A DNA stretch of 40,894 nt from a virus. The stretch's first letter is position 1. Every line of letters starts with the position of its first letter. The stretch is from positions 1 through 40,894 of the IMG/VR virus record IMGVR_UViG_3300048136_000214. One strand, written 5' to 3'. Position numbers and translations under genes: made by a program. This document shows positions 3,182 through 37,940 of this stretch, piece by piece. The notes under the pieces are model-generated. The model was not told the DNA's origin. It saw only the letters and a program-made list of their open reading frames with translations, and searched no databases.

Positions 3182-4528
3182 ATGAAACTATATACTAACT
3201 TCGATAATTTTATCAATGAAGCAAAGGTTATGAAGCAGAAAGATACTGCTAAAATAGCACAAAAATTAGCATCGGCTCTTTCAAAGGCAGATGGTAAAGA
3301 ATTTACAATTTCTAAAGATTCATTAGATGCTGGAGGATGGGATCTAGATATGGATGGAGAAGAATTCGCAGGTGGAACTTATTTTATTGGAGATGCTGGA
3401 GAAATAGTAAACGCAGCAACAAGTAATGACGTATATGGTCACATGGACGACAGTGAAGCTGAATTAGTTAAAAAGATTAAAAAGGGTAAATTTGCAAAAT
3501 ACAGAGCAACTGAATCATTAGATATTGAACTTAATGAAGCTCTTAAGTCTTCTAAACTAAGAAACTTAATAGACATCAGACAGGGTGGTAAGCAACTAAT
3601 ACAGGGTATATATGGTCTTGCTAAAGTAGCATTAGATAAAGTAACCGACGACATGGTTATCACTAATTCAAATCCAGTTGAAGTTTATAAGAAAGCAAAA
3701 ACATACGGAAATGTATTAGTATTTTGGATTTCTAGAAACGAAAAGGAAAATCCTTACACACCTAGAAATAGTTATGGTGGAAAAGATATTATTCCAGGAA
3801 ACACCCTATTAGCAGTCTCAAATGGTAAAAACGAAATGTTTGACAATCATGCTGCATATACTAGAGAGTATGTGGATGGAAAACAAAGACATAAAACTAC
3901 AAGATCTTTAAAGAATAGAGGAAGATACCCTGGTTCTAAAGACACTGTCGGGATAGATAAATCTCATAGTTCATGGAGTGGAACAGGCTTAGGAAATATT
4001 AAAAGAATCGCAGAGGTTTCAGACGAATGTTACATTATTAATTTAGACGCTGTTAGAGATAGACTTTCTACAAGTAATAAAGTATCGCAAAGATTTTCTC
4101 AAAAAGCCGATGCTACCGCGTTTGATAATCCAAAAGATATTAAACAAGCAAACATCACTAAATATCAATCAATTTTAGCACAAAGAGCAGATAATCCAGA
4201 TAAAATAGACAAACAAGTTAAAGAAATTATTGAAGATGCTCATCAATTCTTAATGGCCGGTTTAGCTAAAAAAGAAATGGGAGACTATAACGAATTATCA
4301 ATAGGAAAAGATCCTAAAGGAAGAGATATTAAACCTAGAGATTTAACCAATTATATTTCAAATATATTGTCAGATTATCAAGGATATGTTTCGGCATACG
4401 TTAATGCAAAAACTGAAGAAGAAAAATATGGAACTTCAAGCGATTGGTATAAAAGAGATGCTAAACGTAAAGCTCTAGAGCTTAAGCAGCGAATGGCTAA
4501 ATGGGATAACAAGAACATAGTTTGGTAA
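3182..4528 (+). CDS. Putative internal head protein with capsid-targeting signal (448 aa)
   Basis: The protein starts MKLYTNFDNFINEAKV. This is strikingly like the T4 internal-protein signal MKTYQEFIAEA, in which gp21 cuts after I-A-E. Here the equivalent cut would be I11-N-E13/A14. A second consensus site, L117-N-E119/A120, would release a segment of about 106 residues and leave a C-terminal product of about 329. The C-terminal part is basic and polar, with no motif I recognise. A candidate late promoter lies 30 bases upstream, which fits expression with the head genes. By analogy with T4 IPI-IPIII and Alt, such proteins may enter the host with the DNA; the activity cannot be read from the sequence. 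Confidence 0.8.
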   Translation: MKLYTNFDNFINEAKVMKQKDTAKIAQKLASALSKADGKEFTISKDSLDAGGWDLDMDGEEFAGGTYFIGDAGEIVNAATSNDVYGHMDDSEAELVKKIKKGKFAKYRATESLDIELNEALKSSKLRNLIDIRQGGKQLIQGIYGLAKVALDKVTDDMVITNSNPVEVYKKAKTYGNVLVFWISRNEKENPYTPRNSYGGKDIIPGNTLLAVSNGKNEMFDNHAAYTREYVDGKQRHKTTRSLKNRGRYPGSKDTVGIDKSHSSWSGTGLGNIKRIAEVSDECYIINLDAVRDRLSTSNKVSQRFSQKADATAFDNPKDIKQANITKYQSILAQRADNPDKIDKQVKEIIEDAHQFLMAGLAKKEMGDYNELSIGKDPKGRDIKPRDLTNYISNILSDYQGYVSAYVNAKTEEEKYGTSSDWYKRDAKRKALELKQRMAKWDNKNIVW

Positions 4529-5284: not shown

Positions 5285-5602
5285 ATGAAACAAGTAAAAC
5301 TATATGAGCAATTTATAAATGAATCAGCAATTGATACTTTAGCTACTGAAATTGATGATGCTAAAGTTTATGATGCTGTTTCGGATGGAGGTTCTGTTGA
5401 CGCAAGATCTACTAAAAAAACATGGGACGATGGTGTTCCAGTTTTAAAGTATATTGCTAGAGCTCCAAAAAAATCTGTCAAATTACCCAAGAAATTTAAA
5501 ATAGTAGACGACACAAAATACGGATGGTGGTATTTTCAAGTAGGAAATGTTTGGTATGGCATCGAACAGGATGATTATGGAACACCTCCATTTGAATATT
5601 AA
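5285..5602 (+). CDS. Small putative internal head protein (105 aa)
   Basis: The N terminus is MKQVKLYEQFINES, a capsid-targeting-like signal with a likely cut after I-N-E13. The mature part of about 92 residues ends in an aromatic-rich region (YGWWYF, WYGIEQDD). No enzymatic motif is visible. Its signal repeats the one inside the preceding protein, with the same residues but several synonymous base changes, so the similarity is conserved at protein level rather than being a recent DNA duplication. The stop is 3 bases from the next start. Confidence 0.75.
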   Translation: MKQVKLYEQFINESAIDTLATEIDDAKVYDAVSDGGSVDARSTKKTWDDGVPVLKYIARAPKKSVKLPKKFKIVDDTKYGWWYFQVGNVWYGIEQDDYGTPPFEY

Positions 5603-30776: not shown

Positions 30777-32372
30777 ATGGCAGGTTTTATAGAAAGAAAT
30801 GGACCATTAAGTACCGGTAAAAGACCGTTCACCTTAAGTGATACACTAAAAAGACTCTCGTCTTTTGGAATGTATTACGATGATTTAGTCTTAAGGCAGT
30901 CTCAGGCAATAGGTCCAGTAGAAGATGAATTTGGATATGGCCAAATGAATCAAATGGGTCTAGACGACGATAATATGTATGGCGCATTCGCCGCATTATC
31001 GATGGCAGACACCAACATGAGAAAAAATATTCCTTTCTTTGATCAAGGCTATGAAGGTAAAAGAGACGAATTAAGAAGATTTTCAACTCATGACGAAATA
31101 GAAGATATATTAGATATTTTATGTGATGAGTCTATCGTATATGATAATAAAAACTTTATTGGAAATCCAGAACTTATTGGAATGGATGTTTCTGAAGAAG
31201 TTACTAAATATTTAAATAAATCTTTTAGGGATATTTACCAATACTTTGGTTTTAATCAAGATCAATCAGCATGGTACTTCTTTAGAAAATTCTTAATTGA
31301 TGGTTATCTTTCTTTTGAAATTATTTATAGCCCTGAGCAAGATCAGATTATAGGATTTAAAGAAATAGATCCTATTACATTAATGCCAGGTTATAATAAA
31401 GATGACGGTAAAAAGGTATGGGTTCAATTTAAAGACGATCCGGTTAAGGAGAGGGTCCTATATGATTCACAGATCATCTATCTTTCTTATTCTTCAATAA
31501 CCACTGCATCTAGGGTAAGTTACTTAGAAAGACTCGTAAGAGCCTTTAACTTGATGAGAATTATGGAACATACTAGAGTTATCTGGGCAGTTACTAATTC
31601 TTCGTATAGAATGAAGTTTATTATTCCTGTTGGTGGTAAATCTAAAACAAGAGCAAAACAATCTCTTGCACAATTAATGGGTAATTATAAAGAAGTTGTA
31701 GACTTTGATTGGGATTCAGCTACATTAGCGACTAATGGAAAACCAATGCTTCAATTTAACAAAGAATATTGGTTACCATCTAAAGAAGGAGAATCTCCAG
31801 AGATTGAAACTTTAGGAGGAGACGGTCCTGAATTATCAGATACAGAAGCACTTAAATATTTCAATGATAAATTAAAAATGGTTTCTAAAATACCATTCAA
31901 TAGATTTATGTATGAAGACGGTGGAGGTGACTTTAATCTAGCAGCCGATGGTATGATTAGAGATGAAATTAAGTTTTCTAAATTTATCAAAAGATTACGT
32001 TCTTCTTTCCAAGAAATTTTAGTAAAACCACTATGGTTACAAATGTGTCTTAAGTTTCCTGAATTTAAAGATGATGCAGGGTTTAGAACTCAAATAGCTA
32101 TTCAATTTAATGAAGAGAATATGTTTGCTGAATTAAAGCAGATGGAAATCATGGAGAAACGATTAGACTTTATATCTACAATGCAAGATTCTCTAATGAA
32201 AACAGATCCAGTTACCATGGAAGAAATGCCATACTTCGATATGGAATTCTTAGTCGATAGATACTTGAAATTATCACCCGACGATAAAGCAGCTAATTTA
32301 TCATATAGACAAAGACAGGCTAAAGAAGATGCAGAAGAACCAGAGGTAGATCCAATGGACATGGGCTTCTAG
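30777..32372 (+). CDS. 20: Portal vertex protein (gp20)
   Basis: Dodecameric portal for DNA packaging and head-tail joining. At 531 residues it matches T4 gp20 (524). Family-like segments include DEIEDILDILCDESIVYD (T4-type EIDAAIDEIVNE region), WYFFRKFLIDGYLSFEIIY, a PITLMPGY stretch, and the helical WAVTNSSYRMKFIIPVG region followed by the LPSKEGESPEIETLGG crown segment. Context agrees: it is followed by core, protease/scaffold and capsid genes in the T4 order 20-67/68-21-22-23. Confidence 0.92.
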   Translation: MAGFIERNGPLSTGKRPFTLSDTLKRLSSFGMYYDDLVLRQSQAIGPVEDEFGYGQMNQMGLDDDNMYGAFAALSMADTNMRKNIPFFDQGYEGKRDELRRFSTHDEIEDILDILCDESIVYDNKNFIGNPELIGMDVSEEVTKYLNKSFRDIYQYFGFNQDQSAWYFFRKFLIDGYLSFEIIYSPEQDQIIGFKEIDPITLMPGYNKDDGKKVWVQFKDDPVKERVLYDSQIIYLSYSSITTASRVSYLERLVRAFNLMRIMEHTRVIWAVTNSSYRMKFIIPVGGKSKTRAKQSLAQLMGNYKEVVDFDWDSATLATNGKPMLQFNKEYWLPSKEGESPEIETLGGDGPELSDTEALKYFNDKLKMVSKIPFNRFMYEDGGGDFNLAADGMIRDEIKFSKFIKRLRSSFQEILVKPLWLQMCLKFPEFKDDAGFRTQIAIQFNEENMFAELKQMEIMEKRLDFISTMQDSLMKTDPVTMEEMPYFDMEFLVDRYLKLSPDDKAANLSYRQRQAKEDAEEPEVDPMDMGF

Positions 32373-32387: not shown

Positions 32388-32420
32388 TCAATAGTGAAAA
32401 TAAATGAATCATATACTGAA

Positions 32421-32789
32421 ATGAAACACTTACAAACATTTAAAAATTATTCTTCAATAAAGGAAGATGCCAGAGAAGTAGGTGAAGAATCTGACGTTAT
32501 CGTTGATGACATTCTCCTAGATTCAGGTAAAAAGATTAAATCAGCTGAAATCATAGGAGTTATTAAAACTAGCAAGACTGAAAAGGAATTTAAAGAATAT
32601 TTCTATGATGAATATGGAAATAACGCATTTACGGAAGAGGATATGCAGACTCTTGTAAAGTATTATTTAGAAGTAGAAACAGAAGAAACTGCTAAAGAAA
32701 CTGAAGAAGAGGAAGAAGAAAAGAAGAAAGAAGACGGTGAAGAATCAGGTGGTGATTTATCTGGCGATTTAGCAGATTTAGAAATATAG
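32421..32789 (+). CDS. Small acidic prohead core protein with targeting-like signal
   Basis: Starting at ATG 32421 the product is 122 residues and begins MKHLQTFKNYSSIKED, a capsid-targeting-like signal with a possible cut after I13-K-E15. An upstream in-frame GTG at 32394 would add nine residues (start MKINESYTE). The C-terminal third is almost entirely E and K. Position between gp20 and the gp21-like protease matches T4 genes 67/68, which encode small acidic prohead core proteins, but I cannot show sequence homology. Confidence 0.7.
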   Translation: MKHLQTFKNYSSIKEDAREVGEESDVIVDDILLDSGKKIKSAEIIGVIKTSKTEKEFKEYFYDEYGNNAFTEEDMQTLVKYYLEVETEETAKETEEEEEEKKKEDGEESGGDLSGDLADLEI

Positions 32790-32848: not shown

Positions 32849-34909
32849 ATGAATACGAAAAACAATCTATTAATCCTAGAAAGATCTTCTAGTGAACTGG
32901 AATTTAAACAAAAGGATGGTATATACGTCCTTGAAGGAGTTTTTGGTGAAATTGACAAAAAGAATAGAAACAATAGAATCTATACTGAGTCAGAATACGT
33001 TCCTCAAATTGAAGCCCTTCAAGCGAAGATAGGTTCTTCTAAACTATTAGGAGAATTAGACCACCCGCAAACATTTGATGTATCTTTAAAGAATGTATCT
33101 CACATTATTGAAGAATTATCATATGATAAAGAAACAAAACAAGTAAAGGGTAAGATCAGATTATTAGATACAGAAGCAGGCCGCCAGGCTAAAGCTTTAG
33201 TTGATGCTGGTGTTCCTCTTCAAATTTCATCTAGAGCAGCTGGTCAAGTTGAATCTAATGGAACTGTTAAAATTAAACAATTATTTACGTATGATTTAGT
33301 TGCAGATCCAGGTTTTGAAAATGCAGAATTAAAAAGAGTAAATGAATCATTTGGATTCGAAAACGATTCTGACATTCAAATCTATGAAATTAGCGATACA
33401 AAAGAACTTTTAACAACCGAAAATAAAACTGAAACAAAAATGGCTGAATCAAAATTCGTAAGTACAGAAGATTTTAACAAATATTCACAGTACTTATCAA
33501 GCGAAATCAAGTCTCTTAAAGAAGAAGTAACTTCTTTAACTGGAGACGAATCTGTTAAGTCTGAAGTTGAAAGCGTTAAAGAATATTCAAACTATCTTGC
33601 TGAAAAATTAGAAAAAACAATTGAATACTCTGCATATTTAGCCGAAAACTTAGATAACACGATTACAACAAATAACGAAATATCTGAGAAATTAGATAAT
33701 AGCATTTCATACTCTGAGCATATTGCTGAAGGTGTTGAATCAATTAAAGATTACACTAACTATTTAGCAGAATCTTACAACGAAGGTGCTACAACACACG
33801 AAAACTTATTAAAATACATTGACTATTTAAAAGAAAACTTAGAAAAAGTTACTGAATACGCAGAATATGTTGCAGAAACAGTTAATTCTAACTTATTACT
33901 AGAAGATGAAGCTGGTAAAGAAGTTGAAGAAATTGAAGATGAAGACGATTCTACAGATGTTACTGAACCTACAGTTGATGCTGAAGGAAATGAACTAGAT
34001 CATGGTGGCGAAGTTGAAGATAAATCTGACGAATTAGAAGATGAGTTAGAAGATACAGTTGACGATGCAGGTGATGAAGAAATTTCTGAAGAAGAAGACG
34101 TTGAAGCAGTTGAAGAAACTGAAGAAGAAGACGTTGAAGAAGGTAATGCATTTGGTGCTGCAAGAGCAAAAGCTATCGCAGACGGAGAAGAAGAATTTAC
34201 AGTAGATGGAGAAACTTTCAAAGTTAAAGATGTTGACGCTGAAGATAAAGAAAATGCTGAAGAGTTTGTAGAAGAAGAAGTTGAAGCTACAGAAGAATCA
34301 GAAGAATCAGAAGAAGTTGAAGCTACTGAAGAATCAGAAGAATCAGAAGAATCAGAAGACGTTGAAGAAGCAGTAGATGCATTAGATTCATACAAATCTG
34401 AAATTACTTCTAAATTATCTGCTTTAATTGAAAAAGCAACTGCTAAAGAAAATTCTAATCCTCATTTCTTTAGATTTATTTCTGAAGCTAAGAAATCAGA
34501 ATACAATGAATTATCTACTGAAGATCAATCTACAGTATTAAAGGCAGTAGAAGGTAAAGGATTCTTAACAGAAGGACAAATTATTACTCTATGGAATTCT
34601 TCATTAATCAAAGCTGATAACACTAGCGAACCTAATGTTATTGCAATGATGCCAGAAGAATATAAAGAAACATGGTCTAAATTATCTGAAGCTAAGAAAA
34701 CAGCTCTTTTAGCACAATCTAAGTATCATAAGTTAGAAACTTCTTATCAAGTTAGAAACTTCTGGCAAACTAGAGATCTTAGAGACGTTGCAGTAGTTAT
34801 GGAAAAAGTAGAAACGGTAAATGAAGCTGCAGTTGAAGCTCCAGCTAAAAAACCTTTATACGATTTAACTAACGTAAAAGAAGAAATAGCTAAGAAATTT
34901 AAGAAGTAA
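32849..34909 (+). CDS. 21: Prohead protease fused to scaffold-like domain (gp21-gp22 type)
   Basis: Residues 1-170 are a T4 gp21-type prohead protease. GELDHP gives H72, QISSRA gives S127 and YDLVADP gives D149; the H-S distance of 55 equals that of T4 H85/S140. The chain then continues for 500 residues: seven YxxYLAE-like repeats (about 211-350), a long acidic low-complexity tract (350-515), and a C-terminal helical domain. That domain contains prohead-protease sites I-S-E/A, L-T-E/G and L-S-E/A. In T4 the scaffold (gp22) is a separate gene; none follows here, so this part is probably the scaffold. An internal ATG at 33440 (MAESKF) could start a free scaffold. Confidence 0.88.
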   Translation: MNTKNNLLILERSSSELEFKQKDGIYVLEGVFGEIDKKNRNNRIYTESEYVPQIEALQAKIGSSKLLGELDHPQTFDVSLKNVSHIIEELSYDKETKQVKGKIRLLDTEAGRQAKALVDAGVPLQISSRAAGQVESNGTVKIKQLFTYDLVADPGFENAELKRVNESFGFENDSDIQIYEISDTKELLTTENKTETKMAESKFVSTEDFNKYSQYLSSEIKSLKEEVTSLTGDESVKSEVESVKEYSNYLAEKLEKTIEYSAYLAENLDNTITTNNEISEKLDNSISYSEHIAEGVESIKDYTNYLAESYNEGATTHENLLKYIDYLKENLEKVTEYAEYVAETVNSNLLLEDEAGKEVEEIEDEDDSTDVTEPTVDAEGNELDHGGEVEDKSDELEDELEDTVDDAGDEEISEEEDVEAVEETEEEDVEEGNAFGAARAKAIADGEEEFTVDGETFKVKDVDAEDKENAEEFVEEEVEATEESEESEEVEATEESEESEESEDVEEAVDALDSYKSEITSKLSALIEKATAKENSNPHFFRFISEAKKSEYNELSTEDQSTVLKAVEGKGFLTEGQIITLWNSSLIKADNTSEPNVIAMMPEEYKETWSKLSEAKKTALLAQSKYHKLETSYQVRNFWQTRDLRDVAVVMEKVETVNEAAVEAPAKKPLYDLTNVKEEIAKKFKK
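34277..34348 (+). repeat. 36-bp tandem repeat in the scaffold coding region
   Basis: Two 36-bp copies (34277-34312 and 34313-34348) differ by one base and encode EVEATEESEESE twice. A partial third unit (GAATCAGAAGAC) follows. The reading frame stays open, so copy number could vary without breaking the protein. Confidence 0.8.
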
Positions 34910-35061: not shown

Positions 35062-36441
35062 ATGGCAAATTTAATTAACTCTGCAGAAGTTAGAGAAACT
35101 TGGGCTCCGATCATCGAATCAGCTACAGGTATCAACGAAGCAGAAAAACTAGCGTGGATGTCAGAATACTGTCATAACCACAAACTTTATGAAGATGCTC
35201 ACGTCATGGCTTTAGGCGATGCTGGTAACATCTTTGGTATGGGTCCTGTATCTTTACCGAACGTAGCAACAGGTGCTGAAGGTTCGGGAGATAAAGCTCC
35301 AACATTATTACCATTAGCAATGCAAGTTGCTGCACAAACTATCGGTTTAGACTTAGTACCAGTTGTACCAATGGCTGGACCAATGGGTCTTTTATCTTAC
35401 TTAGACTTCGTTTACGAAGGTGGTAAAATCGGTGCTAATCAAACAGTTAACCCAACTTACATTAAATCTAATACTGCTGAAGCTACTGTAACGGCAAACG
35501 GTGACGTATGGGTTGGTGAATCAAGATTAGATGGTTTCTCAATCATCAAATTAGATGCTAATGCAGAAACTGCACCATTAACTGGTGTTTACGCTGATGC
35601 TGAATTAGTAAAAGCTTTAGAAGACCACATTAAAGGTTTTGCTGGTGCTGATGAGTCTGGTAACCCATTCTCAAGAGGTGTTGGTGAACAGACTCCTGAC
35701 AACATCATGGGTCTTTCTTTATTCTCAAAAAGTGTTGCTGCTGAAACTTTCCAAGTTGCTGCTGCAGTTACTAGAGAGCAAGTACAAGATTTAAAACAAT
35801 TCGGTGTAGATGCTGTTGCTCAAGTTGAGTCAGTATTAACTAACGAATTAACTCAGTCAATCAACAACTTAATCTTAGCTAAACTTAAGTCATTAGGTAC
35901 ATCTAACATTACTCAATCAGGTGCTTCTTTAGACTTAGACTTAGACCAAAACAACCAATTAGGTGGTGAAACTATCGCTTCTAACCATAGAAGAATCTTA
36001 ACTTCAATCCTTGCTGCTGCGAACTTTATCGCAAACAGAGGTAGAAGAGGTGCTGGTAACTTCGCAGTTGTAGGTCCTAAAGTGGCTACAGCTTTACAAT
36101 CAGTTGCTGGTTTCGTTGCTAACCCAATGGCTAACACATTATCACAAGCAGCAGGTGCAATCTACCCAGTAGGTTCTGTAGCTGGTGTAAATATCTACAC
36201 TGACCCAAGACAAGAATGGGAACAAGCAGGTGGATATGATGTAGTAGTTGGTAGAAAAGGTGACGGTAACGGTCCTGGATTAGTATTCATGCCTTACTTA
36301 ATGGCTGAATCAGTACAAACAATCGCTGAAGGAACTATGGCTCCTAAAGTTGCTGTTAAATCTAGATTCGCATTAGTTGAAGCAGGTTTCCACCCAGAAA
36401 CTCAATATGTTACATACAAAATCGAAAACTTAGCTCTTTAA
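35062..36441 (+). CDS. 23: Major capsid protein (gp23)
   Basis: Forms the capsid hexamers. The N-terminal SAEVRETWAPIIES matches T4 AELLNKWKPLLEG. The segment PLAMQVAAQTIGLDLVPVVPMAGP matches the T4 region VMGMVRRAIPNLIAFDICGVQPM, and GRRGAGNFAVVGPKVATAL matches GRGEGNFIIASRNVVNVL. The ending KSRFALVEAGFHPE also follows T4. At 459 residues it is shorter than T4 gp23 (521). The only T4-type protease consensus near the N terminus is I24-N-E26/A27, earlier than the T4 cut at 65. Its codons (many GGT, GCT) look more biased than those of neighbours, as expected for a highly expressed gene. Confidence 0.93.
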   Translation: MANLINSAEVRETWAPIIESATGINEAEKLAWMSEYCHNHKLYEDAHVMALGDAGNIFGMGPVSLPNVATGAEGSGDKAPTLLPLAMQVAAQTIGLDLVPVVPMAGPMGLLSYLDFVYEGGKIGANQTVNPTYIKSNTAEATVTANGDVWVGESRLDGFSIIKLDANAETAPLTGVYADAELVKALEDHIKGFAGADESGNPFSRGVGEQTPDNIMGLSLFSKSVAAETFQVAAAVTREQVQDLKQFGVDAVAQVESVLTNELTQSINNLILAKLKSLGTSNITQSGASLDLDLDQNNQLGGETIASNHRRILTSILAAANFIANRGRRGAGNFAVVGPKVATALQSVAGFVANPMANTLSQAAGAIYPVGSVAGVNIYTDPRQEWEQAGGYDVVVGRKGDGNGPGLVFMPYLMAESVQTIAEGTMAPKVAVKSRFALVEAGFHPETQYVTYKIENLAL

Positions 36442-36560: not shown

Positions 36561-37940
36561 ATGAAAACATTCGAACAATGGTATAAAGCATTTACAGAAT
36601 CTAACGAAGATAACATTCCAGTCGCTAAAGATTCTGCGTCTATTGAAGCAGGAACTGCAACGGCAACTATTTCTTCTTCAAATCCAACTGATATTTCATC
36701 AGATGACTCTCATTCTAAATTAATGAAAGATTGTGATGATATTATTAATTCTCTTAAAACTCTTTCAGATAAATTAACAGAATCAGAAGAACAGGATGAG
36801 GCTATTAACGAATCAAATCCAATGACAGCCGTAATTATGCAAGATCCTATTATTATGGGAGCTATTATTGGTTTAACTGCGATTACAGGTGCTGTGATCG
36901 GTACCACTAAAGCAGCGGTTGACGCGAAGAGAAATAAGAAAATAGCTAAAGAAGTAGATAAAGATTATGATAAGCTTAAGAAGATTACGATGCAAGAGCT
37001 TAAGGTAGAAACTTCTGTTAAAGAGCTTGAAAAAAGAAAAAAAGAATTAACTTCAGGTGGTTCAATGGAAGAGGCTGAAGCGACAAATAAACCAAGTAAG
37101 GCTGATGTTGATTCTAAGAAAAAGGAAGCTCTTAAGAAGATGAAAGCTAAATTAGATATTCAAATTGAAAATCTAAAAGGTAAGCAAGAAAATCTTAAAG
37201 AAGCTACTGACGAATTTAAATTGGGTCTAGACTCTAAATATGGAAAAGAAAAAGTATATGGATTTTTTTCAGGAAAGGTTACATCTCTTATCGCACAAAA
37301 GAAAGATGAGATTTTACAAGCTGAAACTGAGTATAAATTAAAATACTTAGCAGACGATATGGATCCTGAAATTAAAAAAGATCTAAACGAAAGATTACAA
37401 AAGGTTAAAGCTGCTCAAAAGAAAAGATTAACTAGTTTAAAAAATGAGCAAGAAAAAGAAGCTGAAAAGTTAGCAAAGGCAAAAAAAGAAGATCCTGCAG
37501 TTGCTAAAGAATGGGAAGAAAATAAAGATAAATTACAGCCTAAAGAAGAAGAAGAAGATGAGAAGGAAGAAACTCCTTCTGCTGAAGAAACTCCTTCCGC
37601 TGAAGAAACACCAGACGATAAAGAAGATGATTTCGACGCATTTGGTGTTGATGATGAGGAAGAAACACCGGAAGAAGAAACTGTCGATAAAACAGATAAC
37701 TCTAAAGAAGGAATGACTAAAAGAATTGACGCAGTCATTAAAAAAGCTGAAGAGTCTGGTGATGAAGAAAAACTTAAAAAGGCAAAAGAATTAAAGGACA
37801 AGATCTTAGCAAAAGAATCTTGGCAAATTGAAAATACAAAATTAGGAATTTTAATAGAATCAGAACTTAGAAAGATTGAGCATTCAGAAATAATTAAAGA
37901 ATCTTTTTCAGTTAAAGATCGTTTCTCAAAACTAATCTAA
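36561..37940 (+). CDS. Putative internal head protein with hydrophobic segment (459 aa)
   Basis: Begins MKTFEQWYKAFTES, close to the T4 internal-protein signal MKTYQEFIAEA. After an acidic region, residues 89-115 form a strongly hydrophobic segment (VIMQDPIIMGAIIGLTAITG and onward) that could cross a membrane; it starts just after an I82-N-E84 site. The rest is highly charged K/E helix with an 18-bp DNA repeat (ETPSAE) near 37569 and an acidic tail. It has its own late-type promoter and terminator. One possibility is a packaged protein that inserts in the host membrane during DNA entry; a structural role is equally possible. Confidence 0.75.
   Translation: MKTFEQWYKAFTESNEDNIPVAKDSASIEAGTATATISSSNPTDISSDDSHSKLMKDCDDIINSLKTLSDKLTESEEQDEAINESNPMTAVIMQDPIIMGAIIGLTAITGAVIGTTKAAVDAKRNKKIAKEVDKDYDKLKKITMQELKVETSVKELEKRKKELTSGGSMEEAEATNKPSKADVDSKKKEALKKMKAKLDIQIENLKGKQENLKEATDEFKLGLDSKYGKEKVYGFFSGKVTSLIAQKKDEILQAETEYKLKYLADDMDPEIKKDLNERLQKVKAAQKKRLTSLKNEQEKEAEKLAKAKKEDPAVAKEWEENKDKLQPKEEEEDEKEETPSAEETPSAEETPDDKEDDFDAFGVDDEEETPEEETVDKTDNSKEGMTKRIDAVIKKAEESGDEEKLKKAKELKDKILAKESWQIENTKLGILIESELRKIEHSEIIKESFSVKDRFSKLI
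37569..37610 (+). repeat. 18-bp tandem repeat (ETPSAE)
   Basis: Two 18-bp units (37569-37586 and 37587-37604) differ by one base and are followed by a partial third. They encode a disordered acidic linker. Confidence 0.7.

Follow-up and report, generated by a model that had tools for sequence, protein, structure and literature searches.

The analysed window is a 40.9-kb viral fragment (40,894 nucleotides), in which an open reading frame (ORF) of 686 amino acids lies between the portal gene and the gene of the major capsid protein gp23 (Table 1). On the 5' side, gp20 is followed by a small acidic ORF that gave no match in a family search, and gp23 follows directly on the 3' side. Residues 1–166 of the long ORF form a protease, which is joined in frame to an extension of about 490 residues. 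A preliminary description of this DNA had proposed that a prohead protease and a scaffold are joined in one gene and that no separate gp22 lies before gp23. Both proposals gained support: 122 distinct proteins show the same fusion, in a gene order that is conserved as well, and an ORF search of the interval before gp23 revealed none able to be gp22.

Table 1. Features of the protease–extension locus and its neighbours (positions are those of the window).
Feature	Coordinates	Strand	Basis
Portal, gp20	30777..32372	+	Pfam Portal_T4, E 5.9e-68
Small acidic ORF, gp67 position	32394..32789	+	Synteny in relatives
Protease–(predicted) scaffold fusion gene, 686 aa	32849..34909	+	Fusion also in 122 distinct proteins
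gp21-type (Peptidase S77) protease domain, residues 1–166; His72, Ser127/Ser128, Asp149	32849..33346	+	Pfam, 5JBL
VNE|S, residues 164–167, candidate autocleavage site between protease and scaffold	33338..33349	+	Conservation
Hypervariable linker, residues 167–197	33347..33439	+	Last part (~33395–33436) with reduced synonymous variation
Internal in-frame ATG (Met198), proposed scaffold-only start	33440..33442	+	Kept in 117/122 fused proteins
Helical 14-residue repeats (YSxYLAExLDxxI type), residues 198–352	33440..33904	+	Autocorrelation; AlphaFold helices, low confidence
Acidic tract, residues 353–510	33905..34378	+	50% Asp+Glu; length differs among relatives
Mobile module (GNAFGAARAKAIADGEEEFTVDGETFKVK...), residues 429–473	34133..34267	+	Missing in many relatives, present in other phage proteins
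Conserved C-terminal helical domain, residues 511–686	34379..34906	+	Invariant columns; AlphaFold
Major capsid protein, gp23	35062..36441	+	Pfam Gp23, E 3.3e-43
459-aa ORF following gp23, probably a head-core or internal protein and a rival candidate for the scaffold	36561..37940	+	N-terminus, motifs

As judged by sequence and fold comparison, the N-terminal part belongs to the S77/gp21 family. Pfam Peptidase S77 (PF03420) matched residues 20–136 with 40.1 bits against a cut-off of 27 (E 3.6e-10), and PHROG 207, "head maturation protease", matched residues 9–429. The T4 gp21 structure (5JBL) was the sole PDB match in a sequence search with the ORF, and it ranked first in a fold search with the protease domain (E 5e-7). 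The gp21 catalytic triad reported in the preliminary description was confirmed in the motifs GELDHP (His72), ISSRA (Ser127/128), and TYD (Asp149), which were placed by alignment with 5JBL and are invariant in our alignment A2. The full-length AlphaFold model, with a mean pLDDT of 57, is usable for the protease only. In two related records of 234–236 kb (L101 and L103), a second short S77 protease-like match was found in a 132-aa ORF far from the fusion (G003:C1:156418-156672 and G004:C1:36115-36369).

Repeats and an acidic tract had been described in the roughly 500 residues that follow the triad. The 14-residue period is real, since the autocorrelation of the extension peaks at this spacing, and the acidic composition was borne out as well. 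AlphaFold modelled the extension with low confidence. The C-terminal domain has a pLDDT of 76, and 28 of its columns are invariant across 39 sequences. The best fold matches of this domain include other gp21 fusions; virus NIOZ-UU157 contributed a match to an uncharacterised protein of 389 aa and an uncultured phage one to a prohead protease of 657 aa, whereas pT24 and PTm1 matched weakly. We predict that, within the scaffold, the C-terminal domain binds the capsid or the core. The 45-residue module (GNAFGAARAKAIADGEEEFTVDGETFKVKDV), which has no Pfam family, is mobile: it occurs in the fusion and, in some relatives, in the ORF after gp23, it was also located at L061:6325-8034, L069:8155-10140, and L081:5713-8244, and contigs on which no fusion is in view encode proteins that carry it with as much as 96% identity.

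The preliminary description had also mentioned multiple protease sites, which did not withstand counting. The T4 consensus [IL]xE occurs 18 times compared with 15.9 times in shuffled sequence, and an enrichment of LxE sites in the ORF was rejected as not above chance. The narrower motif [ILVMF]NE[SAG] occurs twice where 0.34 occurrences are expected, and of these two sites only the one that closes the protease domain (residues 164–167) is near-invariant among relatives, with V164-N165-E166 invariant in 39 representatives. In 68 of the 69 relatives gp23 carries a motif of this type, which lies close to the N-terminus in the listed proteins, and we infer that it is the cleavage motif of the clade.

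More than 580 relatives are present in IMG/VR, and our comparison set consisted of 122 distinct full-length fused proteins. They come from marine viral contigs, from metagenomic phages of 462–735 kb (LR756500, 462 kb; LR756504, 636 kb; LR756502, 642 kb; LR756501, 735 kb), and from Bacteroidota phages, among them Tenacibaculum phage PTm1 and Chryseobacterium phage MA9V-1; long fused ORFs are also present in Tenacibaculum phage pT24 and the Prevotella Lak phages. The large clade carrying the fusion probably infects Bacteroidota. The order of gp20, small acidic ORF, fusion, and gp23 is kept in the loci checked. At L059:3948-5535 the portal gene is divided into two ORFs, by a frameshift or an assembly error, and the MA9V-1 fusion (L005:8914-12957) extends to 1,347 aa with many (I/V/L)NES motifs. 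In a protease tree, a well-supported branch splits the fused clade from T4, the cyanophages, and PA5oct, all of which have separate genes. PAU, also with separate genes, falls inside the fused clade, so that a re-splitting of the fused gene is likely there, a placement to be read with caution because long branches meet. PAU gp152 was considered as the split homologue of the scaffold and rejected, as the C-terminal domain did not match it.

The in-frame ATG at 33440, pointed out at the outset as a possible start for scaffold alone, exists and encodes Met198, the sole Met from residue 2 up to the C-terminal 90 residues of the protein. Its conservation is the strongest evidence that the sequences offer for a nested start. 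A Met stands at this place in all 88 distinct proteins from the first two homologue searches and in 39 of 39 representatives sharing less than 85% identity, where it precedes a DFNxY motif by 8–13 residues; the surrounding linker columns 183–202 of these representatives reach at most 67% consensus and contain many indels. In the wider set, the count of 117 fused proteins comprises 115 recognised by script together with L089 and L090, whose motif escaped the script and which read NMNKKDFVTKKQ and NMNKNEFVTKEQ. The five proteins without Met at this place are L336 and four distant lineages, PTm1, MA9V-1, L272, and L327. L336, an in-family sequence, lacks any ATG, GTG, or TTG within codons 151–300 and therefore cannot use this internal start. 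In L057 the ATG is retained and is followed by different residues.

The nucleotides around the ATG also appear constrained. Codon bias in the acidic stretches distorted a raw scan of synonymous variation, so the scan was repeated with rates specific to each residue type. The residue-corrected variation fell to its minimum, a ratio of 0.37, in the scan window centred on residue 191, the lowest of 529, and in one subgroup the ratio was 0.0 at the ATG itself; two further dips fall within acidic regions. We trained a start-context model on 41 starts of the window (AUC 0.93). Among internal ATGs, 33440 ranked at the 90th percentile in this model, but among true starts only in the lower quarter, and the homologous ATGs had a median score at the 95th percentile of the internal ones. 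The 21 bases upstream of 33440 are 71% A, a content matched by 0.7% of internal ATGs. The absence of a Shine-Dalgarno-like motif at 33440 is uninformative, since only 10% of the assigned starts of this phage have one. Retention of the Met, the synonymous dip, and the start-like context support the idea that scaffold alone could be made from this codon.

In this marine T4-like virus, a single gene encodes the head-maturation protease and, behind an internal start codon, probably also the head scaffold. We think it quite likely that this is a T4-gp21-type protease gene with a scaffold extension giving two products in one frame, the second from the start at 33440. The start at 32849 would give the full-length protease–scaffold of 77 kDa, and that at 33440 the scaffold alone (Met198–Lys686, 55 kDa) in larger amount; both are probably made. 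The two products would co-assemble into the core through their common helical repeats and C-terminal domain, which would give the high scaffold-to-protease ratio required for a head and deliver the protease inside the head. After assembly, the protease would free itself at VNE166|S and then degrade or release the scaffold. Fusion alone would impose a 1:1 ratio of protease to scaffold, a problem that a second start would solve; T4 uses ~580 gp22 per 55–100 gp21 (PMC9958956, PMC5694885). The fusion and its conservation, the lack of a separate gp22 that could be recognised, and the retained ATG with its constraint at the nucleotide level are observations; scaffold function, start use, stoichiometry, and cleavage are predictions.

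Alternatively, a single product might be made, from which autocleavage at VNE166|S yields free scaffold, Met198 being left over from a scaffold gene that was separate in the ancestor or having a structural role. The invariant V164-N165-E166 would suit such a route, and the five fused proteins without the Met imply that a fused gene apparently works without it. We regard this as unlikely, because one would expect a relic Met in a hypervariable linker to have changed over such divergence, the nucleotides before Met198 are constrained beyond the amino acids, and L057 retains the ATG despite its differing downstream residues. Autocleavage would moreover come late and could not set the ratio in the assembling core.

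The extension resembles gp22 in its position directly before gp23 and in being helical and acidic, as a domain and not as a gene, and single extension and gp22 sequences resemble each other by eye. Homology to T4 or cyanophage gp22 (T4_CASP, PHROG 237) was nevertheless not detected: there was no HMM match, hhalign against cyanophage and T4-type gp22 alignments gave a probability of at most ~10%, and the C-terminal 14-mer motif came out on top in 2 of 63 gp22 sequences compared with 0.8 expected. By analogy, the extension is gp22-like in position and composition, and the gene is lambda C/Nu3- or Mu-like in architecture.

A separate scaffold gene elsewhere in the genome would speak against a nested scaffold, and none was found in the records of 12 relatives (79–236 kb; possibly incomplete). 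Pfam T4_CASP had no match in them, and the scaffold part had no second copy, matching only the fusion besides short matches that include the mobile module. A separate scaffold gene could still exist, since the window is itself a fragment, since divergent scaffolds can escape HMMs, as a separate ORF in the scaffold position of PA5oct escapes the T4_CASP model, and since the ORF at 36561–37940 is probably another head-core protein. The N-terminus of the latter, MKTFEQWYKAFTE|S, resembles a T4 capsid-targeting sequence, and INE|S occurs at residue 82; its relatives carry NE[SAG] sites (41 of 51) and a C-terminal VKDRFSKLI-type motif (46 of 77 contexts). The N-termini encoded at 3182–4528 (MKQVKLYEQFINE|S) and 5285–5602 (MKLYTNFDNFINE|A) show the same resemblance to T4 capsid-targeting sequences, which suggests that all three proteins might be packaged inside the head.

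The extension could also be mainly a targeting propeptide, with the true scaffold another protein, perhaps the ORF after gp23. The targeting-like N-terminus and the recurrent motifs of that ORF accord with this reading, as does the SPN3US protease, whose C-terminal propeptide has been proposed to target the protease into the prohead (PMC7411985). It strikes us as distinctly unlikely. The ORF was not found behind gp23 in several of the fused phages (L089, L335, PTm1), which makes it a weaker candidate for the main scaffold; it diverges quickly, with 54% identity in a comparison that gives 87% for the fusion, and it contains a hydrophobic stretch of membrane-like character. A targeting tail, moreover, would not need a conserved internal start. 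That the gene encodes nothing but a long protease, with a tail of low complexity and a Met conserved by chance or common ancestry, is hardly credible: the acidic tract and repeats do differ in length and composition and some sequences are closely related, but the Met is present in every representative under 85% identity, the C-terminal domain has its invariant columns, and the dip in synonymous variation before the ATG contradicts it.

The predicted two-product gene has counterparts outside the T4 lineage. In phage lambda, the scaffold Nu3 is the 3' part of the protease gene C, read from an in-frame internal start, and in phage P2 protease and scaffold are one protein, GpO, whose protease, unlike that of the fusion gene, is not known to belong to the S77 (gp21) family. 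As in lambda C/Nu3, Mu, and herpesvirus UL26/UL26.5, the protease of the fusion gene comes first and a scaffold-like C-terminal part follows in the same frame, with a conserved internal start at the domain boundary (one in-family exception), whereas the lambda, Mu, and herpes proteases do not belong to the T4 gp21 family. The scaffold is the in-frame 3' part of the protease gene both in Mu, with an internal start (PMC4378225), and in herpesviruses (PMC2949831); UL26.5 has an internal promoter, and the second product of the fusion gene is a prediction.

T4 gp21 shares with the fusion the S77 protease and the position between portal/gp67 and gp23, and gene 21 has an essential internal start of its own (PMC9026906), which leads to a shorter protease product and not to a scaffold; the T4 scaffold gp22 is a separate gene without detectable homology to the extension. 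The Tenacibaculum phages PTm1 and pT24 (PHROG 207) likewise have gp21 and repeats directly before gp23, and are already annotated as "prohead core scaffolding protein and protease" or "prohead core scaffold"; their C-terminal fold also gives a weak match. Their repeats differ from those of the fusion, and they have no Met at the corresponding place. The repeats of PTm1, pT24, and L272 (L272, L002, L003) are of unrelated, W-rich sequence, those of L272 being of the FAPEVQNWVxEE type with a 14-residue spacing by eye. We found no paper in the open-access literature on a gp21–scaffold fusion with an internal start.

The repeat region measures 142 aa in phages of 170–179 kb, 150 aa at 234 kb, 222 aa at 462 kb, 257–258 aa at 636–642 kb, and 285 aa at 735 kb, although these points are few and phylogenetically non-independent, and L129 (a 192-aa repeat region on a 97-kb fragment) is no test of the relationship. 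It is rather unlikely, yet conceivable, that a nested dual-start gene is a general solution in this T4-like clade, up to 735 kb, with the number of 14-residue repeats acting as a ruler of head size. The automatic label "head maturation protease" would conceal the scaffold part. A nested scaffold would explain why no separate scaffold gene can be recognised in these phages, some of which are among the largest known, and it would give them a scaffold that can be tested. Our findings suggest that the arrangement of lambda, Mu, and the herpesviruses also arose in the T4 protease lineage, where the whole clade, including the phages of 462–735 kb, may have its scaffold hidden within the protease gene, downstream of an internal start that is conserved.
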